A stretch of DNA of 42,970 bases. Source: an uncultured Eubacteriales bacterium (GTDB lineage Bacteria; Bacillota; Clostridia; Oscillospirales; Acutalibacteraceae). The position numbers were made by a program, and so were the translations under genes. Shown piece after piece: positions 28,094-41,867 of the stretch. The stretch spans positions 1 through 42,970 of the forward strand of contig ONDC01000009.1 in NCBI GenBank assembly GCA_900316495.1, written 5' to 3'. Every line of letters begins with the position of its first letter. Positions within the stretch are counted from its first letter, which is position 1. The notes beneath the pieces are model-generated. The model had not been told where the DNA came from. It made no database searches and saw only the letters and a program-made list of their open reading frames with translations.

Positions 28094-28234
28094 ATGAAGA
28101 AGCACATCAAGACTCTCAACAAGGCCAACCTGAAGGAAAGTGCTGTCAAGGGCGGCTGCGGCGAGTGCCAGGCTTCCTGCCAGTCGGCTTGCAAGACTTC
28201 CTGCACCGTGGCAAATCAGAAGTGTGAGAAGTAA
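28094..28234 (+). CDS. scfA: SCIFF ranthipeptide precursor (six cysteines in forty-five residues)
   Basis: 46 residues from ATG 28094 (GGAGG 8 nt upstream). It begins MKKHIKTLNKANLKES, the conserved SCIFF leader, and carries six cysteines at positions 22, 25, 29, 33, 37 and 44, the family hallmark. The partner enzyme ScfB installs thioether bonds from Cys to non-alpha carbons of acceptor residues (ranthipeptide), here probably to Thr and other residues between the cysteines. The mature role in Clostridia is unsettled, with quorum-type signalling proposed. It is followed 160 nt later by scfB. Confidence 0.95.
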   Translation: MKKHIKTLNKANLKESAVKGGCGECQASCQSACKTSCTVANQKCEK

Positions 28235-28394: not shown

Positions 28395-29753
28395 ATGATA
28401 CATAAATACAGTCTTAACGGCTACAACATTCTATTGGACGTTTACAGCGGCGCGGTGCATGTGGTGGACGACCTTACCTACCGGTTGGTCGACTTCACCG
28501 ATGAGAACATGACAGAGCAGACGCCGGCCGCCGCCTACGAAGCTCTCGGCGAATTCAGCCGCGAGGAGCTTGACTCGGCCTATGCCGAGCTTTACGAGGC
28601 GTTTGAGCGGGGACAGCTTCACGCTGCCGACGATTACGAGAAATTCGCCGATATGATGGTCAACGCCTCCCTCAAGTCGATGTGCCTGAACATCAGCCAC
28701 GACTGCAATCTTGCCTGCGAATACTGCTTCGCCAGCAAGGGCGGCTTCGGCGGCGAGCGCTGCCTGATGAGTGAGGAAACCGCGCGCAAGGCGATTGATT
28801 TTCTCATTGAACGATCGGTCGGCAGACGCAACCTTGAAGTGGATTTCTTCGGCGGGGAGCCGCTGATGAATTTTGACGTTGTCAGAAAGACCGTCGAGTA
28901 CGCCCGGAGCAAGGAAGCAGAATACGGAAAGAACTTCCGCTTTACCATCACCACCAACGGTCTTCTGCTTGACGACGATAAAATCGACTTCATCAACCGC
29001 GAGATGCACAACTGCGTGCTCTCCATCGACGGACGCAAGGAGGTCAACGACCGTCTGCGCCTCGACTGGGGCGGCAAGGGCTGTCACGACAGGATCCTGC
29101 CGAAATTCAAAAAGTTAGTGGCACAGCGCGGTGACAAGGATTATTATGCCCGTGCCACCTACACCCGCTACAACCTTGATTTCACCAACGACATCCTGTA
29201 TCTCTATGAACAGGGCTTTGATCAGCTTTCCGAAGAGCCGGTCGTCTCCGACCCCAAGCTGGATTTCTCCATTCAGGAGTCCGACCTGCCGAGAATCTTT
29301 GAGGAATACGAGACGCTTGCCAAAAAGCTCATTGAAATGAAGAAGGCGGGGGAGAAAATCAATTTCTTCCACTTCATGATCGACCTCGATCAGGGACCCT
29401 GCGCCATCCGGCGTCTGAGGGGGTGCAGCTGCGGCAACGAATACGTCGCCGTCACGCCGCAGGGCGACATCTTCCCCTGTCATCAATTTGTCGGACACGA
29501 CGAGTGGAAAATGGGCAACCTCAACGACGGCAGCTTCAATGTCGACATCAAGAAAAAATTCGCCCGCACGACTATCTACAACAAACAGAAATGCCGCGAC
29601 TGCTGGGCGAGGTTCTACTGCAGCGGCGGCTGCAACGCCATCAACAACGAGAAAAACGGCAGTATATTAGAGCCTTACAGCCTTTACTGCGAGATGGAAA
29701 AGAAACGTCTGGAATGCGCCATCATGATGCAGGCGGCTCTCGCCGACGAATAG
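28395..29753 (+). CDS. scfB: Radical SAM SCIFF maturase ScfB
   Basis: 452 residues. N-terminal RiPP-recognition-like region (about 1-90), radical SAM core with the 4Fe-4S motif Cys104-x3-Cys108-x2-Cys111 (CNLACEYC) and SAM-binding GGEP (153-156), and a C-terminal SPASM/twitch-type cysteine set (Cys336, 344, 346, 362, 400, 403, 409, 413, 432) for auxiliary clusters. It would generate the 5'-deoxyadenosyl radical and form thioether cross-links on ScfA. Length and spacing match the family. The start is an ATG with AAGGA 10 nt upstream. A GNAT gene begins 2 nt after its stop codon. Confidence 0.95.
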   Translation: MIHKYSLNGYNILLDVYSGAVHVVDDLTYRLVDFTDENMTEQTPAAAYEALGEFSREELDSAYAELYEAFERGQLHAADDYEKFADMMVNASLKSMCLNISHDCNLACEYCFASKGGFGGERCLMSEETARKAIDFLIERSVGRRNLEVDFFGGEPLMNFDVVRKTVEYARSKEAEYGKNFRFTITTNGLLLDDDKIDFINREMHNCVLSIDGRKEVNDRLRLDWGGKGCHDRILPKFKKLVAQRGDKDYYARATYTRYNLDFTNDILYLYEQGFDQLSEEPVVSDPKLDFSIQESDLPRIFEEYETLAKKLIEMKKAGEKINFFHFMIDLDQGPCAIRRLRGCSCGNEYVAVTPQGDIFPCHQFVGHDEWKMGNLNDGSFNVDIKKKFARTTIYNKQKCRDCWARFYCSGGCNAINNEKNGSILEPYSLYCEMEKKRLECAIMMQAALADE

Positions 29754-34876: not shown

Positions 34877-37183
34877 TCAGCGAATCGCGTTGATCCTCCT
34901 GCCGGAGAATTTGATGTTGAAGAGCTTGCCGCTGAGATTGATCTTGAATCGCTCGTACCGCTCGGCATAGCCTGCCTTTATCTGCTCCACCGAGAGACAG
35001 CCGCGATGGCTGACGAATTTGTAGAGGTTGTATTCGCCGTCGCGGTAGGCAAAGTCGGTGCCGTTGTCCTGATAGTGGAGGTATTCGCCGTCGCCGCCGT
35101 AGACCACAAGTTCCAGACAGTCCACCTTCTTTTCGCCGACGTAATTCATCACCTGCCACATGGGAAGCACCGCGCCCTCGCGGACGTAAATCGGACAGGT
35201 ATCGAGCGGCGCTTCGCGGACAATGTAGGAGCCGCCCGGGAATTTCTCGCCGGTGTGGAAGTCGTACCAGTTGCAGTTCTTGGGCAGGTACACGTCACGG
35301 CTGCGCTTGCCCTGATCGACGACAGGCGCCACCATGAGCCACTGTCCCACCATGAACTGATCGTTGATCTCCAGCGTGTTTTTGTCGTTCTGGAATTCCA
35401 GACAGAGCGGGCGGAACACCGGAAGTCCGGTGCTTTCCGTCTCATGGAAGCAATCGTAGAGGTAGGGAATGAGTCTGTAGCGCAGGCGGATGTATTTGCG
35501 GCAGATGTTGAGGGTCTGCTCGTCGAACGCCCACGGCTCCTGATGCCGCGTTCCCTTTGCCGCATGGTTACGGAAGAGCGGGGTGAAGCAGCCAAGCTGG
35601 GTCCAGCGGCAGAGCAGCTCAGGTGTGCAATCGGAGCCGAAGCCGCCGACGTCGCTGCCGATAAACGCCATTCCTCCGAGACCCATGCTGCACATCTGGG
35701 CGATGGAATAGCGCAGGTGCGACCAATGGCTCTGGTTGTCTCCCGTCCAGGCGGTCGTGTATTTCTGCGCGCCGCTGTAGCAGGCACGTGTAATGACAAA
35801 GGGACGCTTGCCTGTGTGACGCTTAACGCCTTCATAGGTTGCCTTGCTCATGAGGGAGCCGTAGACATTGTGCATTTCCCCGTGAGTGGTCTTGCGTTCT
35901 TCGTCATAGAAAACGACGTCCTGCGGTATTTCTCCGCGGAAGCTCGCCGGCTCGTTCATATCGTTCCAGATGCCGGCGACGCCGTCGTCGGTCATAATGC
36001 GCTGGTTGTCCGCCCACCAGTTGCGGACAGCCCGTCTGCCGAAGTCGGGGAATACCGAATCCCCCGGCCAGACCACATTCTCATAGACAGAGCCGTCGGC
36101 GTTGTGTACAAAGAAATCGTTTTTGACGCCCTCGTCATAGATCGGATACCCCTCCTGCTTTTTCACGCCGGGGTCGATGATAGTGACGACCTTGAAGCCG
36201 TGCTTTCCGAGGGATTCGATCATTTCCTTATGCTGGGGGTACTGCTTCTCACCCCATGTGAACACCTTGAAGTCCTCCATGTAGTCGATGTCGCAGTATA
36301 GCACGTCGCAGGGAATTTCCTTCTTCCTCATGCTCTTGGCGACAGACATCAGCTCGTCGCAGTTTTCATAGGACCAGCGGCACTGCTGGTAGCCGAGCGT
36401 CCAGAGCTGCGGCAGCGGCGTGGTTCCGGTGAGATAGGTATAGCCGCTGACGACCGACTTGATGGAATCGCCCGCAATGAGATAATAGTCAAGGTTTCCC
36501 TCATCCGCCGAGAAGGAAAAATACCCGGTGTTCTCCTTGCCGAGATCAAATTGTGTGCGGTGATGATTGTCAAAGAAAATGCCGTAATCCACCTTTTCGC
36601 GGTGAACGATCACAAAGGGGATGGACTTGTAAAGACTGCGCATGGATTCGTAGTGCGGGTCGGGAATGTCGCTGTTCCACATTTCAAAGGCGTAGCCCTT
36701 CTTGTTGAGGAAATTGTATTTGTCTCCCAGACCGTAGAAGTACTCGTCGCCCTCCATGCATTTGAGCACCTCGATCTTGTGGCGGGCAATGCCGTCGGAA
36801 ATGGCGTGTCCCTCCATGCGCGCCTGCTCCATCGCCTCCTGGGAGATGATGGCCGCGCCCTGCGCCTCGCGCGCGCCCTTGTAGTCGCGGCAGATCAGCG
36901 TGCCGTCAGACTGCATGAACTTGATGAGAAAATTGTCATAGACGTAAATCGCCAGCTTTGAAGTGGAGATCACCATGTAATTGCCCACCATGTTGGCGAT
37001 CACATGCACGTTCCGGGACTTGTCGCCCTCTATGGCAAAGGAATGGTTGCACTCCGGCTTAAAGGGACAGAACACATTGATTATGTCCTCGGTGACCGCC
37101 GTGATATACCCGACGGCGTTCTCAAAGGTAATGGCAACGCGGCTGCCCTCGGTATGAAAGGATTTGATTCTGCCGTAATTCAT
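34877..37183 (-). CDS. GH31 alpha-glucosidase, cytoplasmic
   Basis: 768 residues, ATG 37183 with GGAGG 11 nt upstream. An N-terminal beta-sandwich (about 1-230) with GLGDKYNFLNKKGYAFEMWN precedes the (beta/alpha)8 barrel with LGYQQCRWSY, catalytic nucleophile Asp408 in GIWNDMNEP, acid/base Asp482 in TGDNQSHW, and RNHAAKGTRHQEPW; C-terminal beta domains follow. No signal peptide is present, so it hydrolyses imported alpha-glucosides or maltodextrins. No transporter or LacI gene is adjacent. Its leader holds inverted repeats that may control it. Precise linkage specificity is not readable. Confidence 0.92.
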   Translation of the reverse strand: MNYGRIKSFHTEGSRVAITFENAVGYITAVTEDIINVFCPFKPECNHSFAIEGDKSRNVHVIANMVGNYMVISTSKLAIYVYDNFLIKFMQSDGTLICRDYKGAREAQGAAIISQEAMEQARMEGHAISDGIARHKIEVLKCMEGDEYFYGLGDKYNFLNKKGYAFEMWNSDIPDPHYESMRSLYKSIPFVIVHREKVDYGIFFDNHHRTQFDLGKENTGYFSFSADEGNLDYYLIAGDSIKSVVSGYTYLTGTTPLPQLWTLGYQQCRWSYENCDELMSVAKSMRKKEIPCDVLYCDIDYMEDFKVFTWGEKQYPQHKEMIESLGKHGFKVVTIIDPGVKKQEGYPIYDEGVKNDFFVHNADGSVYENVVWPGDSVFPDFGRRAVRNWWADNQRIMTDDGVAGIWNDMNEPASFRGEIPQDVVFYDEERKTTHGEMHNVYGSLMSKATYEGVKRHTGKRPFVITRACYSGAQKYTTAWTGDNQSHWSHLRYSIAQMCSMGLGGMAFIGSDVGGFGSDCTPELLCRWTQLGCFTPLFRNHAAKGTRHQEPWAFDEQTLNICRKYIRLRYRLIPYLYDCFHETESTGLPVFRPLCLEFQNDKNTLEINDQFMVGQWLMVAPVVDQGKRSRDVYLPKNCNWYDFHTGEKFPGGSYIVREAPLDTCPIYVREGAVLPMWQVMNYVGEKKVDCLELVVYGGDGEYLHYQDNGTDFAYRDGEYNLYKFVSHRGCLSVEQIKAGYAERYERFKINLSGKLFNIKFSGRRINAIR

Positions 37184-37218
37184 ATGTAAATCAGCCTCCG
37201 TGTTCTAAGGGAACGTTG

Positions 37219-37347
37219 AATCAGTCGATTCTCACGCCGTTCAAGGGCGTATGCCCGCGGCAAGGAATCGACGGCTGCGCCCTTTATTCAGCGTAACCCT
37301 GAAAAATTGATCAGCAATTGTTGTGGGGAATACCCCTTCTGATCAAT
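37219..37347 (-). promoter_or_regulatory. Structured 5' leader of the GH31 gene with two inverted repeats
   Basis: Near the start site lies an inverted repeat ATTGATCAG (37306-37314) / CTGATCAAT (37339-37347), with GGGG/CCCC pairing inside. Further down, GTCGATTC (37224-37231) pairs with GAATCGAC (37265-37272), enclosing ACGCC/GGGCGT. The first could be a LacI-type operator or an mRNA 5' stem; the second is a multi-branched RNA candidate. No known riboswitch was recognised. Confidence 0.45.
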
Positions 37348-37376: not shown

Positions 37377-37570
37377 GAAAAACAGACATATCTGATAAAA
37401 AAACGCTGAGCTGTCAGCAAAAGGTCAAGGTTCCGTTGTGAGTAGGAGTCAGAAGGAAGCCGGATAGCTGCGATAATTGGTCGCCGCAGGACAAAATCTC
37501 ATCTTCTTCCGTTACCCTTTTTTGGGGCGCTTTGACGTGTTTTTCTGGCACTCTTTCACATCAGAAAACC

Positions 37571-37615
37571 TCTTTTGCCTGCTGCGGCTGAAGCCGGGGC
37601 AAAAGAAACTTTTTG
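37571..37615 (+). terminator. Orphan terminator-like hairpin
   Basis: TCTTTTGCC (37571-37579) pairs perfectly with GGCAAAAGA (37598-37606), with an inner CGGCT/AGCCG-type stem, followed by AACTTTTTG. There is no protein gene upstream on the plus strand. The 37384-37570 stretch before it shows no gene and no clear promoter, so a small RNA is possible. Confidence 0.4.
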
Positions 37616-37681
37616 TCGATATTTTCTTTGATATATGGATAGAATTTATGTATTTTTTACAGACGCGCTGCGTGTGAGGTA

Positions 37682-37710
37682 TTGACTTTGGAAACGCTGT
37701 CTGTTATAAT
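37682..37710 (+). promoter_or_regulatory. Sigma-A promoter of the 23-residue peptide gene
   Basis: TTGACT (37682-37687), exactly 17 nt, TATAAT (37705-37710). The start site would be near 37717, about 32 nt upstream of the peptide ATG. Confidence 0.85.
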
Positions 37711-37748
37711 GGTAGGGCAAAATTACAATGAAAGGAGGTCATCAAACA

Positions 37749-37820
37749 ATGTATCACAACAGGCTTGCAACCGGAACTGATTATGAAGCGATGACCTCGG
37801 CCTGTGCTGCTTGGTTCTGA
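37749..37820 (+). CDS. 23-residue peptide ending CAAWF, unknown family
   Basis: A 24-codon reading frame from ATG 37749 to TGA 37818-37820. It starts MYHNRLATG, continues with TDYEAMT and ends SACAAWF. A full AAAGGAGG lies 10 nt upstream, a near-consensus promoter lies before it, and a strong terminator follows 24 nt after the stop, so it forms a complete, isolated transcription unit. It has no signal peptide and no long hydrophobic run. The last five residues (Cys-Ala-Ala-Trp-Phe) resemble the ring of agr-type thiolactone autoinducers, which close Cys to the C-terminal carboxylate four residues on, but no AgrB/AgrD context is present. It may instead be a regulatory leader peptide for the hydrolase gene at 37969. 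No known family was recognised. Confidence 0.7.
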   Translation: MYHNRLATGTDYEAMTSACAAWF

Positions 37821-37843
37821 AGGGGAAACGATAGGCGGATAGA

Positions 37844-37878
37844 GTCGTGGCGTCTTGCGTCGCGGCTTTTTATTTTTT
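37844..37878 (+). terminator. Terminator of the 23-residue peptide transcript
   Basis: A 9-bp stem with three G-U pairs, 37844-37852 against 37858-37866, with a 5-nt loop, followed by TTTTTATTTTTT (37867-37878). It ends the peptide transcript 90 nt before the next gene, or serves as an attenuator for it. Confidence 0.85.
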
Positions 37879-37968
37879 CGAATTCAGACAAAGCGCGCTT
37901 GCCGGGTCATTTCCGATCACCATTTTTAAGAAAGGAAAGGCTGCTTTGAATGGCTGCGTAAAAATACG

Positions 37969-39348
37969 ATGGATAAAAATACTATGATGGAAAACATAGC
38001 CCGTGAATCGCACGAAAAGGGCGGCTTCAACGGAGCATGGCTTTACGCGGAACAGGGCGAAATCGTGTCCAAGGGCGTTCTCGGCTTCCGGGATCCCGAA
38101 GGCACGCTGCCAATCACGGAGGACACGGTCTTTCAGCTGGCGTCCGTAAGCAAGCAGTTCACGGCGACTGCCGTCATGCTGCTGGTACGGGAAGGCAAGC
38201 TGAGTCTTGAGGATGAGATCACGAAATTCTTCCCGGAGATCCCCTATCCGGGCGTGACGATCCGGCATCTTCTGAACCACACGAGCGGCATTCCCGATTA
38301 CTTTGACGACGCGGACTGGTTCATCCGAATCTGGAAGGAAGAAAAGCGCGTGCCGGGCAATGACGAAATCCTCCGCTTCCTCTGTGAAACCGAAGCAAAA
38401 CCGTATTTCGCCCCCGGAGAGGGATTTGAATATTCCAACACCGGATACAACCTGCTGGCGCTGCTGGTGGAGCGGCTGTCCGGAATGCCTTATGAGGCAT
38501 TCCTGCAAAAGAATATTTTTGAACCCGCCGGCATGACTTCCACACGTTGCTGCCATATCCGCAGGGACGGCATTCCGTTTGAGAATTACGCCCAGGCGAC
38601 GGTGCTTGAAGACAACCGATACGTTGCCGATGTGGACTCCGCCGAGGACGGCGATGTAGCCGCCTTTGACGGGCTGAACGGTGACGACTACGTGTACACC
38701 AACATATTTGATATGCTTCGCTGGGACAGGGCGTTGCAAGAGGAAAAGGTGCTCACGCAGGAGGAACAACAGCTCATGTACACCCCCGGAAAGCTGCATA
38801 ACGGCGAAAACGCCGTTTTCGATAAAGACCGCGGGCTCGCCTACGGCTTTGGCTGGGTGGTCGGCAGCGATGAAAACCTCGGACTGATCGTCTCTCACAG
38901 CGGCGGGATGCCGGGCGTCAGCACATGGTATGAGCGCCATATCGACGCGGACAGGGTGCTTGTTTTTCTTATAAACCGCGAACCAACGGATTACAGAGCC
39001 GATGTCGGGTTCTGGAACGGCATGCAGGCGATTGCGAGAGACAAGGAAGCCGAGCCTGTTCACACCATCGAAGAGATTGCCATCAAGGATCCCGACAAAT
39101 CAAAGTGGGAGCGCTTCTGCGGCAAATACGAGCATCCCGAAGATGCCGATCTCATCATCGACGAGGTCTTCCTGAAAGACGGAGAGCTTCACGCCAACGC
39201 AATCGACGACGACGGGGACGCCTTGGCATTCCGGCTATATCCCATCGGGGAAGACGAGTTCGGCAGGAAGGGCGGTATGCTCAAGGTGAAATTCGGCGAC
39301 AACTGCCTGATAATGGGCGATCATACCTGCCAAAAACTGACAGACTGA
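37969..39348 (+). CDS. Serine hydrolase, beta-lactamase/DD-peptidase fold, cytoplasmic
   Basis: 459 residues from ATG 37969; no strong ribosome site was found (AAGGAAAGG is about 30 nt upstream), so the start is uncertain. Catalytic motifs are SVSK (Ser59-Lys62), YSN (155-157) and HSGGMPG. The C-terminal about 110 residues are an extra beta domain (FCGKYEHPEDADLIIDEVF) seen in class C-like hydrolases. No signal peptide is visible, unlike the exported homologue at 17594, suggesting a cytosolic esterase or peptidase. It may be controlled by the upstream peptide/terminator unit. Followed 21 nt later by a GNAT gene. Confidence 0.82.
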   Translation: MDKNTMMENIARESHEKGGFNGAWLYAEQGEIVSKGVLGFRDPEGTLPITEDTVFQLASVSKQFTATAVMLLVREGKLSLEDEITKFFPEIPYPGVTIRHLLNHTSGIPDYFDDADWFIRIWKEEKRVPGNDEILRFLCETEAKPYFAPGEGFEYSNTGYNLLALLVERLSGMPYEAFLQKNIFEPAGMTSTRCCHIRRDGIPFENYAQATVLEDNRYVADVDSAEDGDVAAFDGLNGDDYVYTNIFDMLRWDRALQEEKVLTQEEQQLMYTPGKLHNGENAVFDKDRGLAYGFGWVVGSDENLGLIVSHSGGMPGVSTWYERHIDADRVLVFLINREPTDYRADVGFWNGMQAIARDKEAEPVHTIEEIAIKDPDKSKWERFCGKYEHPEDADLIIDEVFLKDGELHANAIDDDGDALAFRLYPIGEDEFGRKGGMLKVKFGDNCLIMGDHTCQKLTD

Positions 39349-39369
39349 CATGGAACGGAGATTGATACG

Positions 39370-39849
39370 ATGATACATCTTGAAAAACTAACCTATGAAA
39401 ACTTTTACGACGTCTTCGACCTCGAAGTAACGGAAGAACAGGACGATTTTGTGGCAAGCAACTGTTTCAGCGTGGCAGAAGCCTATGTGACCCTGATAAA
39501 CGGCGGTCAGGTTTTCCCCTTCGCTATTTACAACGACGATACGCCTGTCGGCTTCATCCAGATCGGTTACGGGGAGAACGCTGATCAGGACGGTGTGAGC
39601 GTCGAAAAGGACAATTATGAGATCTGGCGATTTATGATTGACAAACAGTACCAAGGAAACGGCTACGGCAGGGCGGCAATGAAGTGCGCACTCGATTTCA
39701 TCAGGACATGGCCCTGCGGCAAGGCGGAGCTGTGCTGGATCTCCTATGAGCCGGAGAACGTGGTCGCCAAGAAGCTGTACGCCTCCTTCGGATTCGAGGA
39801 AACGGGTGAAATGTGCGATGACGAGATAGTCGCGGTGCTGAAGCTATAG
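39370..39849 (+). CDS. GNAT-family N-acetyltransferase
   Basis: 159 residues, ATG 39370 (ACGGAG upstream). GNAT elements: PVGFIQIGYG, WRFMIDKQYQGNGYGRAAM (acetyl-CoA pyrophosphate loop Q-x-x-G-x-G/A-type) and NVVAKKLYASFGFEETGE. It resembles spermine/spermidine-type or aminoglycoside-like GNATs but the acceptor is unknown. A degraded relative follows immediately (39914-40260) and a third fragment beyond it, pointing to a tandem amplification that decayed. Probably cotranscribed with the hydrolase 21 nt upstream. Confidence 0.85.
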   Translation: MIHLEKLTYENFYDVFDLEVTEEQDDFVASNCFSVAEAYVTLINGGQVFPFAIYNDDTPVGFIQIGYGENADQDGVSVEKDNYEIWRFMIDKQYQGNGYGRAAMKCALDFIRTWPCGKAELCWISYEPENVVAKKLYASFGFEETGEMCDDEIVAVLKL

Positions 39850-39913
39850 CACAGCCGGAACCATCCGGATTTTTACGGGAAGAATGGCACGCTATTCAAA
39901 TTGATAGACATGG

Positions 39914-40260
39914 ATGGATTCAACAGTGCAGACGGAACAGATTCATCTGGAGAAAATCACATATGACAATGTACAGGAAGTGATCGGACTCAGCGTATCG
40001 GAAGCACAGAAGGAATTTGTCGCAACCAACAGCGAGAGCCTTATCGAAGCCTGTTTGTCATTGACGGACGGAAAGCCCTCCAATGCGCGACGGATTTCAT
40101 CAGGACATTCCCGTGCTGCCGGGCGGACTACTGCGTGATTTCCTACGCGCCGAAAAACGGAATGGCAAGGGAATTCTACCGCTCCTTCGGTTTTAAGGAG
40201 CTGAACGAACCCGGATACTATGAGGAAGGCGATGAATTGTCCGCCGTGATGAAGTTATAA
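39914..40260 (+). pseudogene. Degenerate GNAT paralogue with internal deletion and frameshift
   Basis: The N-terminus (QIHLEKITYDNVQEVIGL) aligns with IHLEKLTYENFYDVFDL of the preceding GNAT. At about 40073 the frame changes: the downstream segment reads ALQCATDFIRTF, then CVISYAPKNGMAREFYRSFGF and ends at TAA 40258-40260, matching CALDFIRTW and the C-terminus of the intact copy. About 60 codons including the acetyl-CoA loop are missing and the two halves are out of frame. It cannot make a functional enzyme. Confidence 0.85.
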
Positions 40261-41738: not shown

Positions 41739-41867
41739 GCTTTCGGTGCGTTTTCAGCAGGCGACGATGGACAAACATAAAACCCTTGCCTATGAGACAA
41801 ACGAAAAAAGAGCTTTTCACCGGAACATGTTTGTCGTGATATTTTAATTTTATAGGAGATTAGAAAA

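Follow-up and report, generated by a model that had tools for sequence, protein, structure and literature searches.

A candidate leader-peptide attenuator ahead of a serine hydrolase–acetyltransferase operon in an uncultured Eubacteriales bacterium

The unit at 37682-37878 and its neighbourhood

The window, that is, the whole stretch of 42,970 nucleotides analysed here, comes from an uncultured Eubacteriales bacterium of the family Acutalibacteraceae. At positions 37682-37878 of its plus strand, four signals follow one another with no other gene among them, as a sequence-only reading of this DNA had already pointed out. The first is a sigma-70-type promoter, TTGACT-17-TATAAT (37682-37710), which scores 11/12 and has a TG preceding its -10 element. 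It is followed by a Shine-Dalgarno (SD) sequence, AAAGGAGG (37731-37738), and by the leader ORF that it serves, MYHNRLATGTDYEAMTSACAAWF (37749-37820), which encodes 23 amino acids between an ATG at 37749 and a TGA at 37818-37820. There is an alternative in-frame ATG at 37728; starting there, the frame would encode 30 amino acids and the SD would fall within it. The unit ends with an intrinsic terminator (37841-37878), composed of a hairpin at 37841-37869 and the T-rich stretch TTTTTATTTTTT at 37867-37878. The terminator had been recognized in the earlier reading, with a stem of 9 bp; in effect, the stem has 12-13 pairs.

It had also been claimed that random small frames rarely have all four signals, and this is borne out. 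When both strands of the window and of 20 other stretches of the same genome were scanned for the four signals together, the leader ORF was the sole match in 242,680 bp, and no match was obtained in six Markov replicates. By contrast with the full set of signals, the length of the leader ORF alone is weak evidence of coding, since a frame stays open by chance for another 22 codons with P = 0.27. In codon score, the frame falls between genes (3.6th percentile of gene segments) and non-coding DNA (within the top 5-7%), and it ranks first for codon use among the six local frames.

Downstream of the unit and in the same direction lie two genes. The first (37969-39348, plus strand) encodes a PF00144 beta-lactamase-fold serine hydrolase of 459 amino acids, in which an SxxK-like motif, SVSK, was located by eye; the second (39370-39849, plus strand) encodes a GNAT acetyltransferase of 159 amino acids. 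Among solved structures, the hydrolase comes closest to PBP/beta-lactamase-fold hydrolases and the GNAT protein to various acetyltransferases. Among the best 25 of 44 NCBIfam families for the hydrolase, every family falls below its curated cut-off. The unit had been described as isolated, which is doubtful, since the hydrolase gene is co-directional, starts 90 bp beyond the end of the unit and has no promoter better than 7/12 in the interval that separates it from the terminator. The strongest promoter-like site ahead of the operon is the one at 37682, with weaker 9/12 sites at 37616 and 37628. Thus, as far as sequence tells, the hydrolase would have to be expressed from the promoter at 37682, by transcripts that read through the terminator.

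Other traces of small frames and of decayed genes are found on this side. The nearest good SD to the hydrolase, AAGAAAGGAAAGG (37928), belongs to a three-codon mini-ORF, ATGGCTGCGTAA (37950-37961), and the hydrolase ATG comes just after the stop codon of this mini-ORF, so that reinitiation is possible. Beyond the operon, 39913-40257 holds the remnant of a second GNAT gene, 52% identical over 64 amino acids to the intact one. Further on, at 41767-41829, the decayed start of a hydrolase gene was recognized by eye between a peptidase-like gene and a gene that is presumably desulfoferrodoxin-like; at the corresponding locus, the congener G008 (L009) still carries a hydrolase that is intact and shares 51% identity with the one at 37969.

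Upstream, the divergent neighbour is a GH31 glycosidase gene (34877-37183), for which 16 of the 17 congeners have a relative at E <= 1e-100. At 15 congener loci, followed for 364 to 1500 bp each beyond the GH31 start, the unit and the hydrolase are both absent. The intergenic region of 785 bp contains other elements as well. Positions 37203-37308 correspond to a dispersed intergenic repeat of ~100 bp, with at least 25 matches in the congener G009 and several in many others; the matches listed include longer copies that are 71-84% identical, and no second copy was matched in the organism's own assembly. The stretch at 37432-37481 shows a weak match to a group II intron family (RF02001; 20.5 bits against a gathering score of 32). 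Finally, contig C115 of the same genome (L048, 1-400) starts with a terminator-like stretch that is 94% identical over 51 bp to 37566-37616 and is followed, as judged by eye, by an apparent group II intron start.

Conservation of the peptide and of the layout

The peptide was searched for in its own genome, the genus (18 genomes), the family (300), the class (391), phages and plasmids. One copy is found in its own genome, and none of the 17 congeners has a match at E <= 10. Matches were obtained in 5 of 299 other genomes of the family (E 0.13-0.95) and in 3 of 390 others of the class (E 0.07-0.28). Six of these eight sit in frames of 120-718 amino acids, within the stretch examined; of the remaining two, both from the family, one (L004) lies in a frame interrupted by a stop codon and the other (L005) in a 28-codon frame that has no ATG and runs antisense to what by eye is a transporter-like frame. 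Judged from their sequences, none of the eight resembles the leader ORF, and all are at chance level. Plasmids and phages gave one chance match each.

Pattern searches centred on the C-terminal end of the peptide lead to a similar picture. A DNA pattern for CAAWF and a stop codon was matched in 4 of 393 other genomes of the order, in no case as a short ORF behind an SD; the open frames of the four have neither ATG nor GTG, and one of them has a TTG nine codons from its end, with no SD. When an SD and an ATG were added to the pattern, four matches appeared in a collection of genome contigs, about the number expected by chance according to a rough hand estimate, and none had the ATG in the CAAWF frame. 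In viral contigs, there was no match to this pattern or to an N-terminal peptide pattern, and a literature search for "CAAWF" found no mention of it. At the DNA level, the unit matched none of 97 relatives. Comparison of the whole intergenic region with the congeners gave matches mainly outside the unit; inside or beside it, the matches listed are short pieces, none with an E value better than 0.04. Rfam recognized nothing in the window at the gathering cut-off and, at E <= 5, only the group II intron fragment, which is weak, and a small RNA assignment that is implausible, both outside the unit. Thus, on this sequence evidence, the leader peptide lacks the conserved homologues by which a conserved small-protein gene product would be known. 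The sequence-only reading had named a lack of homologues with synonymous-biased substitution as grounds for giving up its candidate, which holds for a conserved peptide product; a cis-acting leader, by contrast, needs no conserved peptide.

At E <= 1e-30, relatives of the hydrolase in the genus are restricted to G008 (51% identity), G010 (66%, partial) and G011 (36%), and the closest hydrolases among the 300 family genomes are in other genera, namely in G215 (79%) and G133 (81%), the latter being split over two contigs, with 81% identity over the first 198 residues and 69% over the rest. No relatives were found in viral contigs, and plasmids gave only remote serine hydrolases (29-36%). In both G215 and G133, the hydrolase is the second gene of its operon, behind a gene for a GNAT-hydrolase fusion protein whose GNAT part is 37-38% identical to the acetyltransferase of the window.

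These two operons are also preceded by a leader. Upstream of the fusion gene, each has a promoter, an SD, a mini-ORF and then two tandem terminator hairpins. The mini-ORF encodes MIYRAF (6 codons) in G215 (L042:8063-8347, minus strand) and MVCSNSIIG (9 codons) in G133 (L043:1403-1696); the two leaders share 73% identity over 206 nt, and their peptides differ. The leader of the window therefore shares with them the order of promoter, SD, mini-ORF and terminator, followed by the same two kinds of enzyme, but differs in the length of its ORF, in its single terminator and in the gene that it precedes, which is not a fusion. Nor is there significant DNA similarity between the window leader and either of the others (best blastn E 0.47). 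The G215 and G133 leaders had no Rfam match near the gathering score, the G215 leader had no match in plasmids, and the pattern of the two leaders had none in viral contigs.

How frequent such a layout is was estimated with a fold-based scan for a promoter of at least 10/12, an SD, an ATG-started mini-ORF and a terminator before the gene. It covered upstream regions with a minimum length of 120 bp, 163 in all, taken from the window, the 20 stretches of the same genome, L042-L046 and L013-L026. The full layout was present in four: the unit of the window, the G215 and G133 leaders, and an ORF before the gene at 28395. The same scan found it in none of 179 regions (383,975 bp) from five congeners. 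The terminator criterion is a loose one, passed on its own by 114 of the 163 and 114 of the 179 regions, and the promoter cut-off of 10, which admits G215, was set after the G215 and G133 leaders had been seen. Since the cut-offs were chosen in this way, the contrast is suggestive and is not a pre-planned test. A scan with strict stems listed the unit of the window and, apart from it, only an overlapping TTG-started frame at 37688; the leaders of G215 and G133 escaped it, since the stems of their terminators are long and interrupted. As for the more distant hydrolases, the 163-bp region upstream of that of G008 was scanned and no leader scored, a promoter-like site of its own being visible by eye, while the G010 region, of 109 bp and with 90 bp to the preceding gene, is under the minimum of the scan and shows no leader by eye.

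The fourth region of the scan contains, at 28094-28234, an ORF for a Cys-rich peptide of 46 residues with a promoter, an SD and a terminator, which we take to resemble a SCIFF precursor.

Predicted competition among hairpins

Three hairpins that exclude one another are predicted in the RNA of the window: one that covers the SD, an antiterminator and the terminator. In the first (hairpin 1, 37735-37798), GAGGTCATC (37735-37743) pairs with GATGACCTC (37790-37798), a strand that lies inside the leader ORF, through a perfect complement of 9 nt. A complement of this length was equalled in 58 of 20,000 dinucleotide shuffles and in 1373 of 20,000 synonymous resamplings. The predicted stability of the hairpin is -18.8 kcal/mol, which was reached in 4 of 1000 shuffles, and in the model it is proposed to act as an anti-antiterminator. 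In the second (hairpin 2, 37790-37854; predicted at -25.1 kcal/mol), the strand freed from hairpin 1 would pair with the 5′ arm of the terminator, making it the proposed antiterminator. As for the terminator hairpin, no shuffle among 1000 was as stable. Folded as a whole, the 165-nt transcript does not stand out from its shuffles (30 of 200).

The evidence for hairpin 2 varies with how much of the leader is left free to fold. When the 5′ part of the RNA is removed, the gain on the terminator arm is -12.7 for truncation at 37788, 37784, 37776 and 37768, with 9, 10, 13 and 15 of 500 shuffles, respectively, doing as well, and the gain for truncation at 37780 was reached by 31 of 1000. With truncation at 37760, the gain is -11.9 (20 of 500 shuffles). 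It falls to -8.2 at 37792 (125 of 500) and to -4.0 at 37797 (742 of 1000), and it is ordinary when the whole leader is free and hairpin 1 can form (780 of 1000). A plain duplex test of hairpin 2 was likewise ordinary (145 of 500). The truncation points were picked after seeing the data, and the predicted antiterminator exceeds chance modestly and for some truncations only. In the G215 and G133 leaders, no antiterminator stood out clearly in the same arm-gain analysis (26 of 300 shuffles in the best case).

The effect of a ribosome on these structures was modelled by placing its footprint along the leader ORF. A footprint on codons 1-4 abolishes hairpin 1, and 12 pairs form on the terminator arm before the 3′ arm has been made. 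On codons 5-9 and 22-24, hairpin 1 stands and 3-5 pairs form on the arm, while on codons 10-21 hairpin 1 is again open, with 9-13 pairs on the arm. Consequently, the model gives the first codons no special standing as the place where a ribosome would act. Once the 3′ arm is present, the terminator forms at every ribosome position tested in this equilibrium model. If the switch is real, it must therefore act kinetically.

A possible attenuator and its alternatives

Taken together, the unit may form the 5′ end of the operon of hydrolase and GNAT genes (37969-39849) and function as a leader-peptide transcription attenuator, a reading that we consider to have an even chance of being right on the sequence and the folding models. 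Counted in its favour were the lack of a promoter better than 7/12 between the unit and the hydrolase, the recurrence of the layout in G215 and G133, the hairpin statistics, the modelled effect of a footprint on codons 1-4 and the likeness in layout to vmlR of Bacillus subtilis. Counted against it were the lack of DNA likeness between this leader and those of G215 and G133, the position of those leaders before a fusion gene, the lack of a leader before distant hydrolases, the loose terminator criterion of the scan, the dependence of hairpin 2 on the truncation chosen and the prevalence of the terminator at equilibrium. A leader peptide with a terminator that attenuates the hydrolase had been offered in the sequence-only reading as an alternative; it has become the best-supported explanation, with an antiterminator for which the evidence is modest.

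In such an attenuator, the promoter at 37682 would drive the operon as a whole. In the default state, the SD hairpin (37735-37798) would form in the nascent RNA and RNA polymerase would halt at the terminator (37841-37878), so that the operon stays off. If a ribosome were held in the leader ORF, for instance by an antibiotic and most simply at the initial codons, it would keep hairpin 1 open. The freed strand GATGACCTCGG could then pair with the 5′ arm of the terminator (hairpin 2, 37790-37854), and polymerase would read through into the hydrolase and acetyltransferase genes. If the ribosome instead completed the leader ORF, hairpin 1 and the terminator would form. The promoter, the short ORF and the intrinsic terminator ahead of a co-directional gene are seen as sequence signals; that the leader is transcribed and translated, that ribosomes stall in it and that an inducer causes this is what we infer. 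Likewise, the operon would presumably inactivate a compound that targets ribosomes, or answer to an antibiotic.

A rather unlikely explanation is that the unit is an independent gene, whose ~160-nt transcript works by itself, whether through the peptide, the RNA or both. The RNA would carry the anti-SD strand GAUGACCUC, and the hydrolase would be served by leakage or by an unrecognized promoter. The strong promoter and SD, the very stable terminator and the first rank of the leader frame in codon use would all suit such a gene, and a short transcript of stand-alone appearance, with an ORF and a terminator, recalls the dual-function small RNAs that encode a small protein. Unlike these, however, the unit is not conserved, with no homologue of its peptide or DNA in 17 congeners beyond pieces of chance size, and it lies directly ahead of an operon that has no good promoter of its own. 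In addition, the same layout recurs with unrelated peptides in related operons, which also speaks against an independent gene.

That the unit is a remnant is unlikely. The promoter, the ribosome site and the first codons would be what is left of a gene that was truncated and lost when the intergenic region was rearranged, a region in which a dispersed repeat, a possible group II intron fragment and an old terminator are also found; the frame would have no function. The repeat and foreign-looking fragments in the intergenic region, the absence of the unit and the hydrolase beyond the GH31 start at 15 congener loci, an intermediate codon score and an unremarkable frame length are what this explanation would lead one to expect. 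On the other hand, the promoter and the terminator are intact, the 9-nt SD complement and hairpin 1 exceed most shuffles, and the peptide matches no protein start in the congeners.

The sequence-only reading had compared the peptide with a Cys-plus-four thiolactone signal of the agr type, but a precursor of this kind is very improbable: the likeness to AgrD precursors consists in the Cys-Ala-Ala-Trp-Phe end, with a cysteine four residues ahead of the terminal one, while the leader peptide has no homologues, its frame stops right after the would-be ring so that Phe, as the last residue, leaves no tail for AgrB to remove, no ATG stands in frame with CAAWF in the four contig matches, and AgrB (PF04647), already noted as missing nearby, has no match at E <= 0.001 in the one genome, 86.87% complete, in a search that had no positive control, as 0 of 14 control genomes rose above the cut-off either. 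In Staphylococcus aureus, by contrast, AgrD carries a charged C-terminal tail of 14-15 residues that AgrB cleaves off (PMC10196373). The leader ORF was thus rejected as an AgrD.

The attenuator reading, in turn, belongs to a known kind of system. For instance, vmlR of Bacillus subtilis is subject to transcription attenuation that depends on an upstream ORF (uORF), as set out in PMC9226507. The two leaders are alike in having a short uORF in a first hairpin, a later terminator, a predicted competing antiterminator, a gene downstream and a peptide whose sequence can vary. They differ in that the ORF has 23 codons in the window and 3 in vmlR, in that the SD itself is sequestered in the window, and in the genes that follow, a serine hydrolase and a GNAT acetyltransferase here and an ABC-F gene there; the likeness is one of layout. 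A literature search found no description of an attenuator leader before this hydrolase-GNAT pair. A broader proposal, put forward tentatively and somewhat doubtful, is that an undescribed group of attenuators controls operons of GNAT and beta-lactamase-fold hydrolase genes in uncultured clostridia-like bacteria, as a system for the inactivation of drugs or toxins that is induced by ribosome stalling and in which the layout is kept while peptides and RNA turn over completely.

If the attenuator reading is true, what looked like a candidate new peptide gene would be a regulatory switch, and a non-conserved peptide could function through its layout instead of its sequence. The leader would also flag the operon of the GNAT acetyltransferase and the PF00144 hydrolase as likely inducible by an agent that stalls ribosomes, and screening for inducers of the leader would be a cheap route to the substrate of these enzymes.
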